DNA from: Dehalogenimonas formicexedens
GTDB lineage: Bacteria > Chloroflexota > Dehalococcoidia > Dehalococcoidales > Dehalococcoidaceae
Direction of reading: 5' to 3'
NCBI RefSeq assembly: GCF_001953175.1
Contig: NZ_CP018258.1
Span: 400,210 to 464,209 of the forward strand
DNA length: 64,000 nt
Position numbers and translations under genes: made by a program. Below, one piece after another: positions 14,834 through 36,850 of the stretch. The notes under the pieces were generated by a model. The model was given only the letters and a program-made list of their open reading frames with translations. It did not search any database and was not told where the DNA came from. Position 1 is the stretch's first letter. Each line of letters starts with the position of its first letter.

Positions 14834-15694
14834 TCAGGGAATCCCTTCGAAAAGATCGTTTTCCCGCTTATTGTCACCGGTTGGGAAGGCAAGGGTAAAA
14901 GTATCCCGCCGCCCGAAGAGTCTTTGGAAGACCGTCAACATTCCTCCCCTGGGTGGTCCTCCCGCCAGTTGGCTCCGATGGCAGGCCGATGCCGCTTTTT
15001 TGGCTTTCAAGGCTGCCGGATCGAGTTTGATGATCGCGTTTACCGGCATTTCCTCGCCAACCAGGGCGGTCAGATCGATATCTTTGTTGCGGCCGAACTT
15101 CTTCGGGTCTTGTCCGATCAGCGGAAGAACCCTGACAGCGAATTTGAGGAATCGGCGGGGAAATACGTTGAAATAGAGTTTCGACGGCTGGAAGGGGTTG
15201 CCGGCAGTTGGATAGGTTTTTGTTTCTCCGGCGGCATAGAAAGCCATCACCGTTGCTTTATGGGTGGCGATATGGTCGGGGTGGCCGTAATCGCCATGGG
15301 GGTCGTGGGTTAAAACTACCTGAGGTTTGATTTCGCGGATGATCCTGACGATCCTTTCGGCGACCGCCGAGGTGGATGCGTTGCACAATGCCTCGGGATG
15401 TTTGTTGTCCGGGCTCCCGGCCATGCCGGAGTCCCGGTAGCCCAGATGGAAGATGCCCGAGAGTCCCAGGGCTTTGGCGGCGCATTGCATCTCGGCCCAG
15501 CGGACATCTCCGGTGGTGACCAGGCCGGACATGAAGAATTGCGGGTCGATGGTCCCTGCTTCGCCCCGGGTGGCGCAGGCGACATAGACTTTGACGCCTT
15601 GCTGAGCGTAACGGGCCAGGGTTCCGCCGGGTCCGAAACTCTCGTCGTCAGGATGGGCGCCAACGAAAAGCAGCGCGCGGTCGTTAGTCATCAT
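14834..15694 (-). CDS. PIG-L/LmbE family deacetylase
   Basis: 286 residues. Zinc hydrolase that removes N-acetyl groups from sugar-containing small molecules. Seen: the metal/catalytic motif GAHPDDESFGPGGTLARY near the N-terminus, TRGEAG, and the second metal motif LTHDPHGDYGHPDHIATHKA. The substrate is unknown; relatives act in mycothiol, bacillithiol or GlcNAc-PI pathways. The C-terminus has a basic tail. Confidence 0.88.
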   Translation of the reverse strand: MMTNDRALLFVGAHPDDESFGPGGTLARYAQQGVKVYVACATRGEAGTIDPQFFMSGLVTTGDVRWAEMQCAAKALGLSGIFHLGYRDSGMAGSPDNKHPEALCNASTSAVAERIVRIIREIKPQVVLTHDPHGDYGHPDHIATHKATVMAFYAAGETKTYPTAGNPFQPSKLYFNVFPRRFLKFAVRVLPLIGQDPKKFGRNKDIDLTALVGEEMPVNAIIKLDPAALKAKKAASACHRSQLAGGPPRGGMLTVFQRLFGRRDTFTLAFPTGDNKRENDLFEGIP

Positions 15695-23200: not shown

Positions 23201-24565
23201 TTACCCAACCCGTCCCACCGCCGTCCGGGGTTCGTATTTGGAGGCGGCTTTGATCACCAGCGCCAGCGACATCAAATAGTCGTCGTGGGAGAGGGAGGGG
23301 TTGCAGTAGAAGTTCAGGCTTTGGTTTGTTTTGTAGTCAGCGGATGCGGTTTCAAGTTCCTTCCAACATTCCTCGCATTCGGGAGAGGCGTCGCGGGAGT
23401 AGAGTTGCAGGCGCCCGGTGCCCGCGGCAGCCAATAGTTCATAGCCAAGCTCGCTCTTGGAGTGGGTGGTAAAAACGACTGGAACGACTCGGTGGCCCAA
23501 AGATGTTTTCAGCGTGGCGCACAGGGGCGCGCCCAGGCCGGTGGCATCGGCGGCGATACGGCGTAATCCCCAGGCCCTGGCGATGTCGACGATCTTTGGC
23601 AGGAGAATGGTGAATGGGAGGCCGGTCCAGGAGTAGTGCCGGACGACGCGGATTAGTCCTGAGTTAGTGTAGGGGCGGGTCTCAGACCCGCCCTCAACGA
23701 TCTCGCCAATAGTCAGCACTGTCGAGTCGCTGGCGGTGTTGCCTTCGCCGCCGAAATCCAGCCCCGCCACATAAACCGCTCGCGGCTGGGCGGTCCGCTC
23801 ACGCGGAAAATCGCCGGTCATTTTCATGAGGTGATCGTCGGAGAAGAAGCCGCCGCTTTTGCCGACCTCGAGCAATTGATACTGAGTCCTGAAGGTGGGG
23901 TGGTTCTCGCCCAGGCGGGCGCGTTCGCCCTCGACATAAAGTCGGTAATCATCGTTATAGAGAGCGACCTCCTGCCAATCGAAGTGAAAATGTCTTTTGA
24001 TGCCGTCGGCTTTCTCCAATTCCAGGTTGTGTGATTTGACCGTGTCGAGCAGATTGCCTTCGCGCCATGGAGTCCCGTAGAGCACTGTCGTGGCGTTACG
24101 GGTGGCGGCCATCGGGCGAAAATCGCGGTCGAACTTCTCTATCGATACGTCCTGGGCTTCATCGATTTCGAGAAGAAGGTGTGCGGTATTTCCCACCACG
24201 TTGGCGTTCTCGCTCCCGGACAGGAAGATCACCCGCGCCTGGCCGAGCCGGACGATGTGACCGGCCTCGATGACGTAATCGCCTCCGAAGCCGATGGAGT
24301 CCAAGCTGGCGCATAACCGCCGGAGGGAGATCATTGCCTGCGGCTCGAAGGTGGGGGCGCACTTCACGATATTGAGCGGCTGTTCGACGTTATGCACCAG
24401 CGCCCAGGTCTCGATCCAGGCCGAAAGCTCATTCTTGCCGCCCTGGCGGGCGATCTCGACGGAAAAGGTGAGGCCGCGATCGTTCACGATGGAATCGGTG
24501 ACGGCGCGGTAGATTTCATGCTGGTAGGGGCGGAGGGAGGCGATGGTATCGGGTGCAAAAGACAT
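23201..24565 (-). CDS. Phage-type terminase large subunit
   Basis: About 454 residues. Packages phage DNA into capsids. Seen: the P-loop variant ARQGGKNE, Walker B LLLEIDEAQD, a nuclease domain with AGLDFGGEG, ADATGLGAP and SHDDYLMSLAL. No portal, capsid or tail genes are nearby, so it is an isolated remnant or a domesticated gene. I chose ATG at 24565; the ribosome site is poor. A palindromic repeat lies inside the gene at 23669-23693 and encodes GSETRPYTNSG. Confidence 0.85.
   Translation of the reverse strand: MSFAPDTIASLRPYQHEIYRAVTDSIVNDRGLTFSVEIARQGGKNELSAWIETWALVHNVEQPLNIVKCAPTFEPQAMISLRRLCASLDSIGFGGDYVIEAGHIVRLGQARVIFLSGSENANVVGNTAHLLLEIDEAQDVSIEKFDRDFRPMAATRNATTVLYGTPWREGNLLDTVKSHNLELEKADGIKRHFHFDWQEVALYNDDYRLYVEGERARLGENHPTFRTQYQLLEVGKSGGFFSDDHLMKMTGDFPRERTAQPRAVYVAGLDFGGEGNTASDSTVLTIGEIVEGGSETRPYTNSGLIRVVRHYSWTGLPFTILLPKIVDIARAWGLRRIAADATGLGAPLCATLKTSLGHRVVPVVFTTHSKSELGYELLAAAGTGRLQLYSRDASPECEECWKELETASADYKTNQSLNFYCNPSLSHDDYLMSLALVIKAASKYEPRTAVGRVG
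23669..23693. repeat. Palindromic repeat inside the terminase gene
   Basis: GTAGGGGCGGGTCT followed by AGACCCGCCC, arms complementary. Same GTAGGGGCG-palindrome design as the 12856-12923 tandem. It keeps the reading frame open and adds about nine residues in the linker between ATPase and nuclease parts. Confidence 0.6.
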
Positions 24566-24607
24566 AAAGACCAAATCCTAATATCTAATTTCTAAATCCT
24601 AGTGATG

Positions 24608-24672: not shown

Positions 24673-25125
24673 TCATTCCTTAATGATCTCCGCCACGCCG
24701 CCGGCAACCCCAGCCGCCCCGCCAAGGATGCTGATGATCTTTTTAGCCTTTTCAAAGACAGCGTTTTGTCCTGTGTATTTGCGGCGGACCATTATGAGGG
24801 ACAATTTGCCGATTACTTCCGAGAATAGCTTGATGTTTTCGGGATCGAGTTCTTCCAATAGCTCGATCTTGGAACGCAAAAGAACGATCTCGGCGTCAAG
24901 ACCTTCGAGCTGTGCCGCCTCTTCCATCACCTCCTGCCGGGGAGTGGCGGCATACTTGGAGTAGAACCCGTGGATGCGGGCTTTCTGGTTTCCCGGCTGG
25001 CTGCCTTCGTGTCGCCCGGCCGCGGGAGTTTCGGGTTTCTCGTTTCGAATTTCGGCATTTCGGATTTCGGGCTGGGCCGTATTCTGTTGTGGGGAGGCTT
25101 TAGTAGTACCTGTGTTCTGATTCAT
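24673..25125 (-). CDS. Terminase small-subunit-like protein
   Basis: 150 residues. A low-complexity N-terminus (QPEIRNAEIRNEKPE) is followed by GNQKARIHGFYSKY, a motif common in small phage/terminase-associated DNA-binding proteins, then a Glu/Lys-rich helical region and a Gly-rich hydrophobic end (ILGGAAGVAGGVAEI). It is related to the protein at 28972-29505 (shared GNxxARxHG and the following helices). The -10 box lies only about seven bases before the ATG, so the mRNA is probably leaderless. Confidence 0.7.
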   Translation of the reverse strand: MNQNTGTTKASPQQNTAQPEIRNAEIRNEKPETPAAGRHEGSQPGNQKARIHGFYSKYAATPRQEVMEEAAQLEGLDAEIVLLRSKIELLEELDPENIKLFSEVIGKLSLIMVRRKYTGQNAVFEKAKKIISILGGAAGVAGGVAEIIKE

Positions 25126-25132
25126 ACCGAGA

Positions 25133-25164
25133 ATTATAGCACAGGAGTACTCCTAAGCTGTCAA
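25133..25164 (-). promoter_or_regulatory. Promoter with 20-base spacer and central palindrome
   Basis: Minus strand: TTGACA (25159-25164), a 20-base spacer and TATAAT (25133-25138). The spacer holds the perfect palindrome AGGAGTACTCCT (25143-25154). Long spacers with a central palindrome are typical of MerR-type control. The start site would fall on the start codon. The region upstream matches that of the 28972 gene. Confidence 0.75.
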
Positions 25165-25267
25165 GCGTCTCGTGTCGTTTTTGGTACCATTTTCAAAAAA
25201 TATATTTACCACATAGCTTAACATAAAGAAACCGCCGCGAACCGAGGGTATGCGCCTTTTTCTCGTA

Positions 25268-25304
25268 TCCCGTTCGTCCTGAGCTTGTCGAAGGATGAAC
25301 GGGA
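25268..25304. repeat. Dispersed intergenic palindrome (REP-like), copy 3
   Basis: ATCCCGTTCGTCCTGAGC followed by TTGTCGAAGGATGAACGGGAT; the outer arms ATCCCGTTC and GAACGGGAT are perfect complements. The rest of the 25126-25412 gap shows no gene. Confidence 0.75.
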
Positions 25305-25412
25305 TATTGCTGTTCGTTTGAGATGGTCCCGGCAAAATCTGGGCTTGGGACCTTTGGGCGGGCATCGTTAGTGATCAATTACGGATGGGGCACTCGCCGG
25401 AACGGCGGGTCG

Positions 25413-26561
25413 TTATTCCCTGGGATTGAATATATCCATGTAGGCTTTGTACTCGTACAAGCGCCCGTATTTCTCTGAACCCGCTTTGGGTTGCAGGATG
25501 CCCATTTCGATAAAGCGCTCGATGAGACGGGACGCCCCCCTCCGTGTAAAAAAACCTGCCCATTCTTGAACCTTGGTCACATTGACGATCGGCTGGGCGT
25601 AAAGGTTCACCAGTACCTTCTTCGAACTCTCGATAGCCCGCTTGTCCCCGGCCAGGATCAGCCCCATATCGTGGTTGCTAAGCGCGGAGATCCTGGTGAT
25701 GGTTTCTATGGATTCCCCGGCGATATCGATGACCCCATCCAGGAAGAAGCCGATCCATTCGTCAATCCGGCCGTTATGGTAGGCCTCGAGTTTATCGTAG
25801 TAAAGCGCGCGGTGCCTTTTGAAAAAGGATGAAAGGAATAACACCGGCCTGTCCAGGTAGCCTTTTTCCAGCAGGTAGAAGTTGATCAGCATTCTTCCGG
25901 TTCTGCCATTGCCGTCCTTGAACGGATGGATGGTCTCGAACTGGGAATGGATGATGCCTGCCTTTATCAAAACAGGGATAGCATCATCAGCATTGATGAA
26001 ACCCTCGAGATCGCCGAGGGCGCGTTGCATATCGGCTACCGGCGGCGGTACAAAACGGGCTTCCTCGATATGTCTGCTGCCGAGCCAGACCTGTTCGGTT
26101 CTGAACTCGCCCGGAATGACGTACCCGGAAACCCGCGCCTGGTGAACAAGCTCGCGGTGCAGTTCGCTAATGAACCGGAGCGCAAGCGGGAACTTGTCTT
26201 CGGCAACGCGCTTGATGCCGTAATGCAGCGCTTTAATATAGTGCTGGATGTCGTCGACATCAGGCGGGATTTTGGAACTCATCTGGACCTCAGCCTCGAT
26301 GGCGTCTTCCATGGTGGCCTGCGTTCCCTCGATCTGCGATGATGAGGCGGCGTCCTTGCGCAGGTACATCAATAGGAAGTAATCCATATCCGGCAGGGAT
26401 TTGGTGGCATAATCCAGCTTGCCAATGAGGCGGCTAGCCTCTTCGTTCTTTCGCGCCACCAGGGGGCCAAGATCAAAACCGCTCAGAGGGGGGAAGGGGT
26501 GGGGGATAAAAACCTTGAAGCCCTTTGGCTGCGATTTCAATTCGCCAATAATGTTACTCAT
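25413..26561 (-). CDS. Fic family AMP-transferase-like protein
   Basis: About 382 residues. Fic enzymes transfer AMP or other groups to target hydroxyls. The core motif HPFKDGNGRTGR is intact. An N-terminal inhibitory motif SSSQIEGT is present near residue 80, so activity is probably self-restrained. C-terminal winged-helix-like segment (VTKVQEWAGFFTRRGASRLIERF) suggests DNA binding. I chose ATG 26561 over an upstream GTG. A promoter covered by two palindromes lies just ahead, which fits autoregulation. Confidence 0.93.
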   Translation of the reverse strand: MSNIIGELKSQPKGFKVFIPHPFPPLSGFDLGPLVARKNEEASRLIGKLDYATKSLPDMDYFLLMYLRKDAASSSQIEGTQATMEDAIEAEVQMSSKIPPDVDDIQHYIKALHYGIKRVAEDKFPLALRFISELHRELVHQARVSGYVIPGEFRTEQVWLGSRHIEEARFVPPPVADMQRALGDLEGFINADDAIPVLIKAGIIHSQFETIHPFKDGNGRTGRMLINFYLLEKGYLDRPVLFLSSFFKRHRALYYDKLEAYHNGRIDEWIGFFLDGVIDIAGESIETITRISALSNHDMGLILAGDKRAIESSKKVLVNLYAQPIVNVTKVQEWAGFFTRRGASRLIERFIEMGILQPKAGSEKYGRLYEYKAYMDIFNPRE

Positions 26562-26582
26562 ATTTGGTATACATCCGACAGT

Positions 26583-26624
26583 CACTTAGATACTAAGTGT
26601 AATAGATAGTATCTATTAAGTCAA
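26583..26624 (-). promoter_or_regulatory. Fic promoter with two adjacent palindromic operators
   Basis: Minus strand: TTGACT (26619-26624), 17-base spacer, TACACT (26596-26601). Palindrome 1, AATAGATA-G-TATCTATT, fills the spacer (26601-26617). Palindrome 2, CACTTAG-ATA-CTAAGTG, spans the -10 and start region (26583-26599). They are one base apart. A bound repressor would block RNA polymerase. Confidence 0.75.
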
Positions 26625-26722
26625 GGAATGTGTACCAAAATCCCAGGGAGAGTCAATCGGCTCGTGATATGTGGAGTCTATTTATTGTGATAAGTAGGCA
26701 GCGAGAATTGCCCATTGGAATC

Positions 26723-28696
26723 TTAAATCGTCTGGAACCCAATGTCTTTCAAATATTGGTATGTCGGATCATAAAAATCAGGCTGGCGTGTGGGGTCTGC
26801 GATTTCTCCTTTGGGCACGACCACGACCATACCCTGACGAGCGCGGGTTAATAGGACTCGATATGCGTTTTTGAGGTAATTCATACGTTTTGACATCTTT
26901 ATGTGATACCAACGAGAACCAATAAATGATCGGTGTTCCCAACAAGTCTTTGAATACCTAAAATCAGCATCCCAAGTTACGCAGACCCAATCAAGTTCCA
27001 ACCCTTGAACGTGAAATTCAGTTGCAACATCTTCGAGGTAATACGATGAACGAACGTCCTCTTTCCCTTCAAGAAACCAATGAACTGGATCCATCGGCGA
27101 TTTGATATCTATTGCGTACGGTTTGAGTCTTTCAGCCTGGGAAGACACTACAATCCCGTAACGTTCCGATCCCCTGGCATGGGTACGTAGCCAATTCTTG
27201 GCGATCGAAAGGTCCCGAGTTATTACGATAGGGTAATTCTTAATGACTTTGGCCAATGCTTCCCGACTTTCATCCGGTTTAAGGTCCAACAATTTTTTAA
27301 TCAAGAAAGAAACATTTTCTGCTCTGAATGAACGCATTGATACTGAAAGATGTAAATCATCATCGTACTGAACATTGTCACGGAATTTGATTTTGGACAA
27401 CTCCCTTTCGGTGCAATATTCGCTATCTGTTAGTTTGGAGGAAATATAAATCTTCCAATCCGGAAATGATCTATCCAATGAGTCAACCCACTCACCGATC
27501 CCAGCTTCTCCAGTATTGATTTCTTGCCCACCGCCCACAAGGCAAATGACAACAGCCCAATCACTGTGACGATCAAGACAGGAAATCAGGAATTCAGGTT
27601 CGGATTTCTTAAAATTAGGGTGGCCCTTTTTTTGTTTCATAAATTTTTGAGTTTGATCTAAGTCCCAGGCTCGTTGGGCTTCATCGAATATTGCTACATG
27701 TTCAACCGGAGGCCCAGGTCTGAGTAGACAGTCGTCTCGGAAATTATGAACGTTCTGGATTCTCACTTTAACCGTTCGCATTACAGCGCCTTTGGTGATT
27801 TTCAGTCCACGTTCCTTCTCCTGCCTGACTTTATCTCTGGTTATAGCTTCTCGTAAAACCTGAACGAGTGGTCCATTTCCAGAAAGGAAAACGCTGTAAA
27901 GATCATTGGATTCGTCGGAATGTTTATTGGCAATGTTCAGGCCAACCAATGTTTTGCCTGCTCCCGGCACACCAGTAACAAAGCATATCGACTTTTGATG
28001 TTTTTCCTTGGATATTTGAATTATTTTTGTTATTTTATCGGAGGTTGTTGAAAGGTTAATTGCATTCGCATCACTTCGAGAAATATCTTCCACTGAATGC
28101 CCGTTATACAGAGCTAAAGCAGCCTCGATAATTGTCGGTGTGGGACAGTATCTTCCTTCTTTCCAAACTTTAGGATCGATCAATTTCCCCGTGCTCAGAT
28201 CAAGTATCTGTTTCATGATCCCTTCGAGTGACTTTAGATCGCTGTTAATCGGGGAAAAAATTTTGTCATACGCTGGGGGTATTGGACTACACGGAGACGA
28301 AACTTTGGCTTTAGTTGCTATCAGGATTGGAACAATAAATTGATCGTGGCTCGGCTCGTGGAAGTTTTTTAAATCAAGAGCGTAATCATAAACCTGATCT
28401 ATGTCTTTTGATTTGAATTCTATCTCACCAACTTTGAATTCCAGAACAAAAATTACATGTTTAATTAGAATTACGACATCTATCCGCTTTCCCATACGGG
28501 GAATGGAATATTCAAACAATATTTCTCCATCAATATGCCCTAGTATCGTTTGCAATATGCAAACTTCTTCAAGCCAAGAATCACGTTGTTGCAAACCAAC
28601 ATCGTATTGACTATTTTTAGTTAATATTCCCAAAATCGTTTCAGGAGATGACATCCGAAAGTTCGAAATGGAGTCGGAATAATATTCTCTCTTCAT
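26723..28696 (-). CDS. DUF2075-type DNA/RNA helicase with N-terminal nuclease-like domain
   Basis: 657 residues. N-terminal part has a PD-(D/E)XK-like pattern: Asp in [10 protein letters not shown] and E-x-K in FVLEFKVGE. Then a superfamily 1-like ATPase: Walker [14 protein letters not shown], Walker [13 protein letters not shown], and late motifs [12 protein letters not shown] and [14 protein letters not shown]. Such proteins are common in defence islands and mobile elements; function unproven. Base composition is clearly more AT-rich than the flanks, a sign of transfer. Confidence 0.85.
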
Positions 28697-28971
28697 AATT
28701 CCTTTGTACCATTCAATCGATAAGTTCCAGTGGTACTGTTCATCTTGTATCTGGCGACCACTACCAATAATAGTATACCAGGATCAATCAATGATCATTG
28801 GGTATTTGCAATTAAAGCATCCGCTATCGGTCTGTGGGCGGTGGATGGCGTGGAATCTGGACGTCTGCGCTTAACTCGATGAATGATTGCCGTAAATATA
28901 TTTCGTAATTCCCACCAAAAACGACACCAAACGCTTGACATCCCTGTGAACAGCCGTGCTATAATACCGGC
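28697..28971. other. Intergenic region shared with the 24673 gene upstream region
   Basis: About 275 bases with divergent promoters. The part near 28893-28940 is an inverted copy of 25159-25210, sharing GTCAAGCGT, TGTCGTTTTTGGT and ATATATTTAC blocks. No gene seen. Confidence 0.6.
28935..28965 (+). promoter_or_regulatory. Promoter with 19-base spacer, leaderless start
   Basis: TTGACA (28935-28940), 19-base spacer, TATAAT (28960-28965). Only six bases separate the -10 box from the ATG at 28972, so transcription should start on or next to the start codon. Matches the 25133-25164 promoter in layout and upstream sequence. Confidence 0.75.
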
Positions 28972-29505
28972 ATGACTGAAAATAGAACAAATGTACAAAC
29001 AAATGGTTTAGAAGGTATTCCCAGCCCGCAACCCGAAACGCCAGAAACCGCTCTTCCTTATCACTCCCTCTCCGTTTACGGAGAGGGTCGGGGTGAGGTC
29101 GCGAAACGTGGCCGTGGCGCGCCGAAAGGCAACCTGAACGCCCGCCACCATGGCCTCCGTTCGCCCCGCATCATCGAAGCCCAGCGCAGGATATTAAAGG
29201 AAGAGACGGATTACGGCCGCCTTGACCGGGAGATACTGCTGGCTGTTTTTCAGACCGTGATGGTCAACTCCACCGGCGCCACCACCCACGTTGCCCTCCG
29301 CCTCCAGGCGCGCTTGGCACGGCTGGTGCGGATCAAGTACGGCATCCATCTGGATGATCTGGAAGCTCTGGAGAACGCCACCAGGCGGGTCGCCGTAGAC
29401 CTGCCGCTGACCAAAGAACTTGCCGCCAGGCTCGCCGCGGTTTCCAAGTCACCTCCGGGCGTACTGATAACTGACAACTGTAAACTGTCGACTGTAAACT
29501 GTTAA
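28972..29505 (+). CDS. Terminase small-subunit-like protein
   Basis: 177 residues. Contains KGNLNARHHGLRSPRIIEA, the same GNxxARxHG motif as the 24673 protein, then helices with conserved DREILLAVFQTV. Residues about 30-45 (YHSLSVYGEGRGEV) come from a G/C-rich inverted repeat that also occurs near 12800, and the last residues (CKLSTVNC) come from a run of ACTGT-type repeats, so both ends look repeat-derived. No ribosome site, consistent with a leaderless message. Confidence 0.65.
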   Translation: MTENRTNVQTNGLEGIPSPQPETPETALPYHSLSVYGEGRGEVAKRGRGAPKGNLNARHHGLRSPRIIEAQRRILKEETDYGRLDREILLAVFQTVMVNSTGATTHVALRLQARLARLVRIKYGIHLDDLEALENATRRVAVDLPLTKELAARLAAVSKSPPGVLITDNCKLSTVNC

Positions 29506-29629
29506 CTGTGAACTAGGTATTGTTTGATTTGAATGAATTGATCGAATTGTCCGCGCCAAACAACTCAATCGTGAGTTTCGCCAATTTCAATCGTGTTGTT
29601 TCGGTAACTATTGAAAATCGTGTACGGAC

Positions 29630-29665
29630 AAAAAAGCGAGCGGCTCTTTGGAGCCGCTCGCTTTC
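29630..29665 (-). terminator. Strong terminator after hppA
   Basis: Perfect GCGAGCGGCTC / GAGCCGCTCGC stem with a four-base loop and, on the minus strand, a T6 tail. It ends the hppA transcript. Confidence 0.9.
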
Positions 29666-34120: not shown

Positions 34121-34143
34121 AATTGCCCGTTAACATAGTCCAG

Positions 34144-35763
<1,620 letters not shown>

Positions 35764-35789
35764 ATCTTTTGTCCTCCCTAACCTTTCGC

Positions 35790-36704
35790 CTATGTCCCGA
35801 TCCGCTCACAAATTGAGCAAGTCCCCGGTAGCATGCCTATTGCTGAATATTCGCTGATTAATTCTCTGATTGGCGTTACCCATTCCCCAAGGCTCTTATA
35901 CGTTGTTTCTACTTCTTTAAGTTCAACCGTTTTGGTGAGTTCTTCGTATGCTGCAAGAAGACCGGACCTGCACTTATCCTCGCCTTCGGCATCTACCTCA
36001 GCCAGTTGTTTGCCAAACAGGGTGACCAGGTGCCGCTCCCGATCGACAACCATCCCATTTTTCAACTCAGCATCCGTTTTCCCAGGTTCCCCTGAGAAAC
36101 GTCGTCGAAGCGCGTACTTATAGAGTTCAGCGCAGGCGGTGTGACTGAAAACGAACGGCGGATGAATACCTTTAGTTTCCGAGACCACCGGTAAACCCGT
36201 CTTATTCCTGATGAGTTCAAGCGTCTTCAGTTGGAGGTCGATTCGAGCCAACAAATGGGCTTGATACTCTTTCTGCCACTTGGAAAGAAAGCGCGTAAGC
36301 TTGATTTGGCCCAGGTGCTGCTTGATCGGAGACGGCTTGTTGAGGGCGGCTTTTGGAAATCTCCCGGCGAGGAACTTTTCTTTCAGGCGCTCTTCATCGA
36401 GGAAGACCGACAGTGGCTCGCGCTCGTACCAGGAGACAACCGCCAGTTCAACCGCCGGGACCTCAACGGAACGGGCAGTTTCAGTGAGTTCAGCAAGTAG
36501 TTGTTCCTGATGCCTTTTAAGGGCATCTCGGATCAGGCTCACATTTGCCTCTCGCAAGTCCCGTTCCCGTCGCGCTTGGATGATACCGTCCCTGACCGTG
36601 CGAGGATCAGCCTTGGTATCATTTACGATTTTGGATTCAGTTTTCCCCTCTTCAATTAGTTTGAGCCACCTCGCCCTGTCTTCCGCGCTATATTTCTTCG
36701 GCAT
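35790..36704 (-). CDS. Mobile-element protein with N-terminal helix-turn-helix
   Basis: 304 residues from ATG 36704 (MPKKYSAEDRARW). The first 60 residues look like a homeodomain-type helix-turn-helix (WLKLIEEGKTESKIVNDTKADPRTVRD), the middle is helical and charged, and the end has CSICERIGT, half of a possible metal site. No family recognised. Directly upstream of the serine recombinase, same strand, 26 bases apart; probably part of the integrated element and possibly its regulator. Confidence 0.6.
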   Translation of the reverse strand: MPKKYSAEDRARWLKLIEEGKTESKIVNDTKADPRTVRDGIIQARRERDLREANVSLIRDALKRHQEQLLAELTETARSVEVPAVELAVVSWYEREPLSVFLDEERLKEKFLAGRFPKAALNKPSPIKQHLGQIKLTRFLSKWQKEYQAHLLARIDLQLKTLELIRNKTGLPVVSETKGIHPPFVFSHTACAELYKYALRRRFSGEPGKTDAELKNGMVVDRERHLVTLFGKQLAEVDAEGEDKCRSGLLAAYEELTKTVELKEVETTYKSLGEWVTPIRELISEYSAIGMLPGTCSICERIGT

Positions 36705-36850
36705 GGAAAAATATTCCCCTTTTCTACGATTGATGATTATATTGCAAACGTCATACATGTATTTTATTGCTGTTTAGTGCGGCTGTCAATATTTACGCAT
36801 ACTTAACATTCTGCGGTGACGGGGGACGAAAGGTATGGTACTCTCGTTAC

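Follow-up and report, generated by a model that had tools for sequence, protein, structure and literature searches.

What keeps two homologous small-terminase-like genes, each behind a matching promoter, on either side of a block of other genes in a bacterial genome? The question is raised by a 64,000-nucleotide stretch from Dehalogenimonas formicexedens (contig NZ_CP018258.1, positions 400,210 to 464,209; hereafter the window), where terS-like gene A (24673..25125, minus strand, 150 amino acids (aa)) and terS-like gene B (28972..29505, plus strand, 177 aa) point away from each other. The answer that we favour, with moderate confidence, is that they belong to an SOS-controlled packaging module, either domesticated or resembling a gene transfer agent (GTA), the promoter units of which have been dispersed and are now recombination sites around a defence-gene pocket. 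The window genome (G000, 2.09 Mb) was compared with its sister species (G002), with a family sample of 11 genomes and with a class sample of 119 Dehalococcoidia genomes; the cross-genome comparison was read from the stretches around the sites.

The two promoters are built alike. Promoter A (25133..25166, minus strand) reads GCTTGACA-GCTTAGGAGTACTCCT-GTGCTATAAT, with N16 between the two outer parts, and promoter B (28933..28965, plus strand) reads GCTTGACA-N15-GTGCTATAAT; between TTGACA and TATAAT the spacers are 20 nt (A) and 19 nt (B), and the ATG follows TATAAT by 7 nt (A) or 6 nt (B). This spacing places the ATG at the expected transcription start with no room for a ribosome site, as the original prediction had it, and we infer that both genes are probably transcribed and translated without a leader. 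Around the two -35 boxes and upstream of them, about 45 nt match each other at 80% in inverted orientation. Each promoter has an upstream box: that of A is AAAAACGACACGAGACGC (25165..25182, minus strand), where AAAAACGACA is nearly invariant over 83 promoter copies that we collected from four species of the genus; that of B is AAAAACGACACCAAACGC (28917..28934, plus strand). There are also two dyads per promoter. The first, op1, overlaps the -10 (AGTACTCCTGTGCT in A, 25138..25151, minus strand; TGAACAGCCGTGCT in B, 28947..28960, plus strand), and the second, op2, lies within the first codons (AGAACACAGGTACT in A, 25105..25118, minus strand; AGAACAAATGTACA in B, 28984..28997, plus strand). The palindrome reported in the spacer of A, AGGAGTACTCCT at 25143-25154, is real; it is an overlapping variant of op1 and occurs once in the genome.

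The products of A and B share a homologous stretch of 47 aa, with 34% identity. A was identified as small-terminase-like by hidden Markov model (HMM) matches to PHROG small-terminase families (phrog_370, E 5.9e-8; phrog_509, E 7.4e-6) and by its neighbour, the large-subunit gene terL (23201..24574, minus strand, 457 aa), which lies directly behind A, as every terL of the family lies directly behind a terS. B, with no terL behind it, is an orphan paralog. TerL matches the PHROG terL profile (E 1.1e-6) and, below threshold, Terminase_6C; no relative was found among PDB sequences. Its Walker A, Walker B and acidic nuclease residues are intact in the family alignment (ARQGGKNE, LLLE(I/V)DEAQD, GLD, DATG, HDDY), in which one member (from G010) has a broken C-terminus. 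A third terS-like gene, C, at 594 kb in G000, has the same leaderless layout. The ratio of nonsynonymous to synonymous substitution rates (dN/dS) is 0.10 for A and 0.21 for C and, against the sister species, 0.11 for B and 0.14 for terL; all four genes are under purifying selection. A scan of the genome contigs with the single protein B gave no match.

The pairing of promoter and gene, for which a search in relatives had been proposed, is general in the family: the terS profile finds one to eight genes in each of the 11 genomes, and 24 of the 30 terS genes have an in-frame start codon 6-9 nt after a -10-like hexamer, with lineage-specific promoters. terL is present in 11/11 family genomes, always behind terS and in differing neighbourhoods, and in 69/119 class genomes, nearly always as a single copy. 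At 80 named Dehalococcoidia terL loci, terS stands ahead of terL in 74, accompanied by a late-activator-like helix-turn-helix (HTH) gene in 26, a portal gene in 28 and a major head protein or capsid gene in 15, all on the terL strand. HTH, portal, scaffold-like, capsid, connector and tail genes lie 5-11 kb from terS-terL in G001 and G006, where the capsid is 77-78% identical to that of another family; in the Dehalococcoides-like G008 and G009 only a portal-tail fusion remains. No portal, capsid or head genes were seen in the stretches of G000 that were read, the rest of that genome not having been searched for them. A literature search on terminases or GTAs in this group found nothing relevant. 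In several genomes the opposite strand of the packaging cluster encodes a large protein of secreted or surface type, the signal sequences being alike (L327 11526-13319, L332 3177-5753, L379 8864-10975). Another island of G000 (L377, 236-252 kb) carries small phage-tail-like genes, for which the searches made showed no relation to the head cluster.

A regulator is suggested by the class relatives, in which a LexA-type box, AGAACATATGTKCT, lies across the -10 of the terS promoter (an example upstream sequence is CGACAAAACCCGGTAGTCATAATAGAACATATGTGCTATTAT). The textbook LexA box of the Gram-positive type is GAACATATGTTC. The form AGNACN4GTNCT is exact at 24/73 class terS loci, against 5/214 control windows, and where class boxes have a -10, GACAAA stands upstream at a fixed distance in 32/38, against 0/38 at the control placement. 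The module terS-terL and its box are conserved class-wide. The lexA gene has its own box, AGAACACTTGTTCA, and AGAACANNTGTTCA occurs in the lexA promoters of most members of the genus. The GAACN4GTTC-type dyad is perfect or near-perfect in the class relatives and degenerate in the window. In the light of the class box and the lexA box, op1 and the upstream box of the window descend, in degenerate form, from what was probably an SOS promoter, and LexA is the likely regulator of promoters A and B.

These two promoters are members of a dispersed family. The search pattern GCTTGACAN{13,24}GTGCTATAAT gave 29 exact matches in G000 and none for the reversed control, so that the window holds two of about 29 copies; elsewhere in the genus, three species carry 12, 32 and 10 copies and four lack this type. 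Two of these four, G005 and G007, have their own homogenised version, CCAAAA(C/T)CC(C/T)ATTGACA, with 35 and 28 copies and none elsewhere. Near-invariant over the 83 copies are AAAAACG(A/T)CA, C-GCTTGACA, GNAC-N4-GTGC and TATAAT (the invariance of GCTTGACA and GTGCTATAAT being fixed by the pattern itself), and the spacer is 19-20 nt in all. An op2 of the form AGNAC-N4-GTNCT, 12-20 nt behind the -10, matches at 7 or more of 8 positions in 46/83 copies and in 0/249 control windows. Most copies head a short decayed frame; the leaderless open reading frame (ORF) is a terS-like gene at the A, B and C loci and in several relatives. We rejected the short leaderless ORFs as a conserved small-protein family, as their frames shift between subfamilies and their dN/dS is 0.56-0.94. 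Apart from tRNAs, no known RNA families were found in the units.

The right-hand parts of the units lead back to terL. A full terS-terL unit of G005 has the left end of the short units, and 18 nt after its terL stop comes their right end (63-70 bp). In the window lineage, an 18-nt motif, GTCGTTTCAGTCGTTTTT, stands at the right side of 38/83 units and of 0/83 in each of three control placements; it is the terL stretch coding RVV(P/S)VVF, and a second variant fits the second terL allele of G002, where the C unit retains the terL C-terminus. The window terL contains CACCGAGTCGTTCCAGTCGTTTTT (23471..23494, minus strand; codons RVVPVVF), and the same 24-nt motif terminates many short units. The copies are mostly deletion or decay derivatives of a terS(-terL) unit, and the promoter has been dispersed to about 30 sites per genome. 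Behind B, a 3' segment (29520..29640, plus strand, reading ...ELSAPNNSIV..FNRVVS..) is common to other dispersed units. A hairpin lies at 29558-29601 (arms AAACAAC/GTTGTTT), with matching places in other units (L004, L022, L026); its arms co-change between copies (AAACGAC/GTCGTTT), and in this 3' part of the units it could form a structure at the RNA or the DNA level. G000 also has two decayed remnants of the terL C-terminus, neither with a promoter that could be recognised (90098-90611 and 725073-725414; L035, L224), one upstream of clpC and the other beside tRNA genes. At one locus of G005 (L216, 188517 and 188746), two promoters of the G005 type stand in tandem, 229 bp apart, ahead of terS-terL.

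The copies coincide with breakpoints between the sister species. About 20 of the 29 sites are common to G000 and G002, and at roughly half of these the downstream gene is kept while upstream homology ends 15-42 nt before GCTTGACA. At the window locus, arm A (to 25226) and arm B (from 28917) are 80-91% identical in G002, and the pocket between them (25227..28916) has no blastn homology; its breakpoints are the upstream edges of both promoters, homology beginning exactly at the upstream box of B. Within this 3.7 kb, between the two promoters as first described, G000 has a Fic gene (25413..26585, minus strand; PADLOC SoFic, E 9e-101) and a helicase gene then called DUF2075-type and now SLFN-g3 (26723..28696, minus strand; PADLOC candidate PDC-S41, E 2e-282), whereas G002 has unrelated restriction-type genes (a methyltransferase, a helicase and two more). 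Genes of both sets match defence-gene models. The arrangement does behave as the cassette that had been proposed, the interior having been exchanged as a block. The inversion proposed alongside it was not seen between the window's own arms in the sister species; it was seen between two other copies. The G000 copies at 14970(+) and 22408(-) bracket lexA, and in G002 the genes downstream of the corresponding copies (gyrA side, ilvE side) have changed places, with lexA on the other strand: a segment of about 7 kb with lexA is inverted between inverted copies. Recombination between copies, or with incoming DNA via copies, would be the simplest explanation of the breakpoints and the cargo exchange. 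Arms A and B lie next to hppA in G000; at this place G001 and G006 (L165 and L166) instead have accC and an apparent reductive dehalogenase pair. Further along the window, a serine recombinase gene (34144-35763, minus strand) is followed by another gene (region 34123-36758), ending at a tRNA-like reading frame (34123-34278); this is probably a separate, tRNA-integrated island.

The explanation that we prefer runs as follows. A and B are small-terminase paralogs under copies of one ancestral promoter, which belongs to a phage-derived terS-terL(-HTH-portal-capsid) module kept through the class Dehalococcoidia. Most likely, LexA represses by binding the op1 dyad across the -10; in the genus, op2 just inside the gene would assist, and DNA damage would release repression. 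In the Dehalococcoidaceae, with the ATG at the expected transcription start, most terS mRNAs would be leaderless. Homologous recombination between copies would cause the breakpoints and the cargo exchange, and terS-terL would have a GTA-like or domesticated packaging role.

Several observations weigh against parts of this explanation. The terS identity of B is weak by HMM (E 0.017 against the PHROG small-terminase families), yet B joins the terS family alignment; the predicted terS structure is all-helical with a mean predicted local distance difference test score (pLDDT) of 68.6, and at E 0.001 it matches no fold in PDB. A longer leader, with a GGAG resembling a ribosome site, precedes at least four terS genes of G005 and G007; set beside the 24/30 above, this makes the pairing and the leaderless layout general in the family, not universal. 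Measured against LexA boxes, the operators in the window are imperfect (AGTAC/TGAAC-N4-GTGCT), and a different repressor whose dyad is related would explain them equally well. Finally, the genes downstream of the copies form no clean SOS regulon: uvrA, ligA, mutS, dnaE, ruvA and sbcC are among them, but so are valS, leuS, argF and accC, and uvrA has its own, nearer promoter behind the element. The notion that every copy is the promoter of an SOS gene was not upheld, downstream functions being mixed. In G007, a diverged element with a terS remnant occupies the uvrA place.

Could the copies instead be working promoters that make a regulon of the genes behind them, the leaderless ORFs being by-products? 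The downstream gene is co-directional in 63/80 copies (binomial p 1e-7), whereas the strand of the upstream gene is random, and the core from -16 to +35 remains alignable between the sister species where the flanks do not. Co-direction means that copies may drive some neighbours, or that insertions against a gene were selected out. Against this reading, gene conversion among copies could keep the core, there are 200-600 nt of decayed sequence between promoter and gene, upstream neighbours change freely, and the mixed functions and the promoter retained by uvrA count here too. We think this reading unlikely, while treating it as a serious possibility.

A genuine miniature mobile element seems to us a doubtful proposition. 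Its inverted terminal motifs (left AAAAACGACACGAAACG, right GTCGTTTCAGTCGTTTTT) would be recognised in trans, perhaps by TerS/TerL, and the short units would be internal-deletion derivatives that still move. The 38/83 count for the right motif, the ends that the G005 short units share with full terS-terL units, a homogenised family in each lineage and the terL remnants at two other loci all speak for it. However, the flanks are too diverged between the available species to establish a target duplication or a clean pair of empty and filled sites, the sites shared with the sister species indicate little recent movement, and the right motif also codes part of terL. The inverted end motifs are imperfect, and left/right co-variation is weak in G005 and G007. 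No transposase was identified; mobilisation of the RAYT/REP type (REP-associated tyrosine transposase and its repetitive extragenic palindromes) was rejected, the Y1 transposase being absent in 7/8 genomes.

A bolder version, which we regard as improbable, makes TerS-TerL the machinery that moves or recombines the units: under SOS control, the terminase would recognise its own inverted motifs, cut or package DNA at about 30 sites, spread promoter-bearing derivatives and reshuffle the defence cargo. MerR-type activation, to which the original prediction likened the palindrome and in which the long spacer and its palindrome would be the operator, can be given hardly any weight: a 19-20-nt spacer in all 83 copies and the perfect palindrome in A would suit it, but the palindrome is private to that one copy, the conserved dyad GNAC-N4-GTGC sits on the -10 rather than being centred in the spacer, class relatives have a LexA-type box at the same position, and no regulator gene lies between the arms.

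If the preferred explanation is right, a probable DNA-damage switch governs a phage-derived packaging module that has been kept across the class to which the organohalide-respiring Dehalococcoides and Dehalogenimonas belong. Were this module a GTA, or to package host DNA, reductive dehalogenase genes could spread by way of it. Independently of this, the dispersed copies are a testable cause of inversions and defence-gene exchange in these small genomes.

Four known systems invite comparison. With LexA/SOS operators of the Gram-positive type (GAACN4GTTC), the promoters share the dyad spacing and the overlap with the -10 (class relatives, AGAACATATGTTCT; own lexA, AGAACACTTGTTCA); the window copies differ in their half-sites (GTGC or GTAC), in a further dyad that lies within the gene and in being dispersed in about 30 copies. 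As in GTAs and domesticated prophages, terS, terL, portal, scaffold-like, capsid, connector and tail genes are conserved in the class, no integrase was seen adjoining and SOS control is probable; in G000, however, terS-terL alone was found in the stretches read. Phage satellites with defence hotspots (phage-inducible chromosomal islands (PICIs) and the P4 type) likewise place an orphan terS beside exchangeable defence-type cargo, but A and B have no satellite integrase or replication genes, the cargo lies between two terS promoters and the distribution is vertical-like. Inversion-promoting miniature inverted-repeat transposable elements (MITEs) and other dispersed repeats also come as many copies of a short unit that descends from a longer, gene-carrying one, with inverted end motifs and inversion between inverted copies; here, in contrast, the parent unit carries terminase genes rather than a transposase, and its left end contains a strong, regulated promoter.

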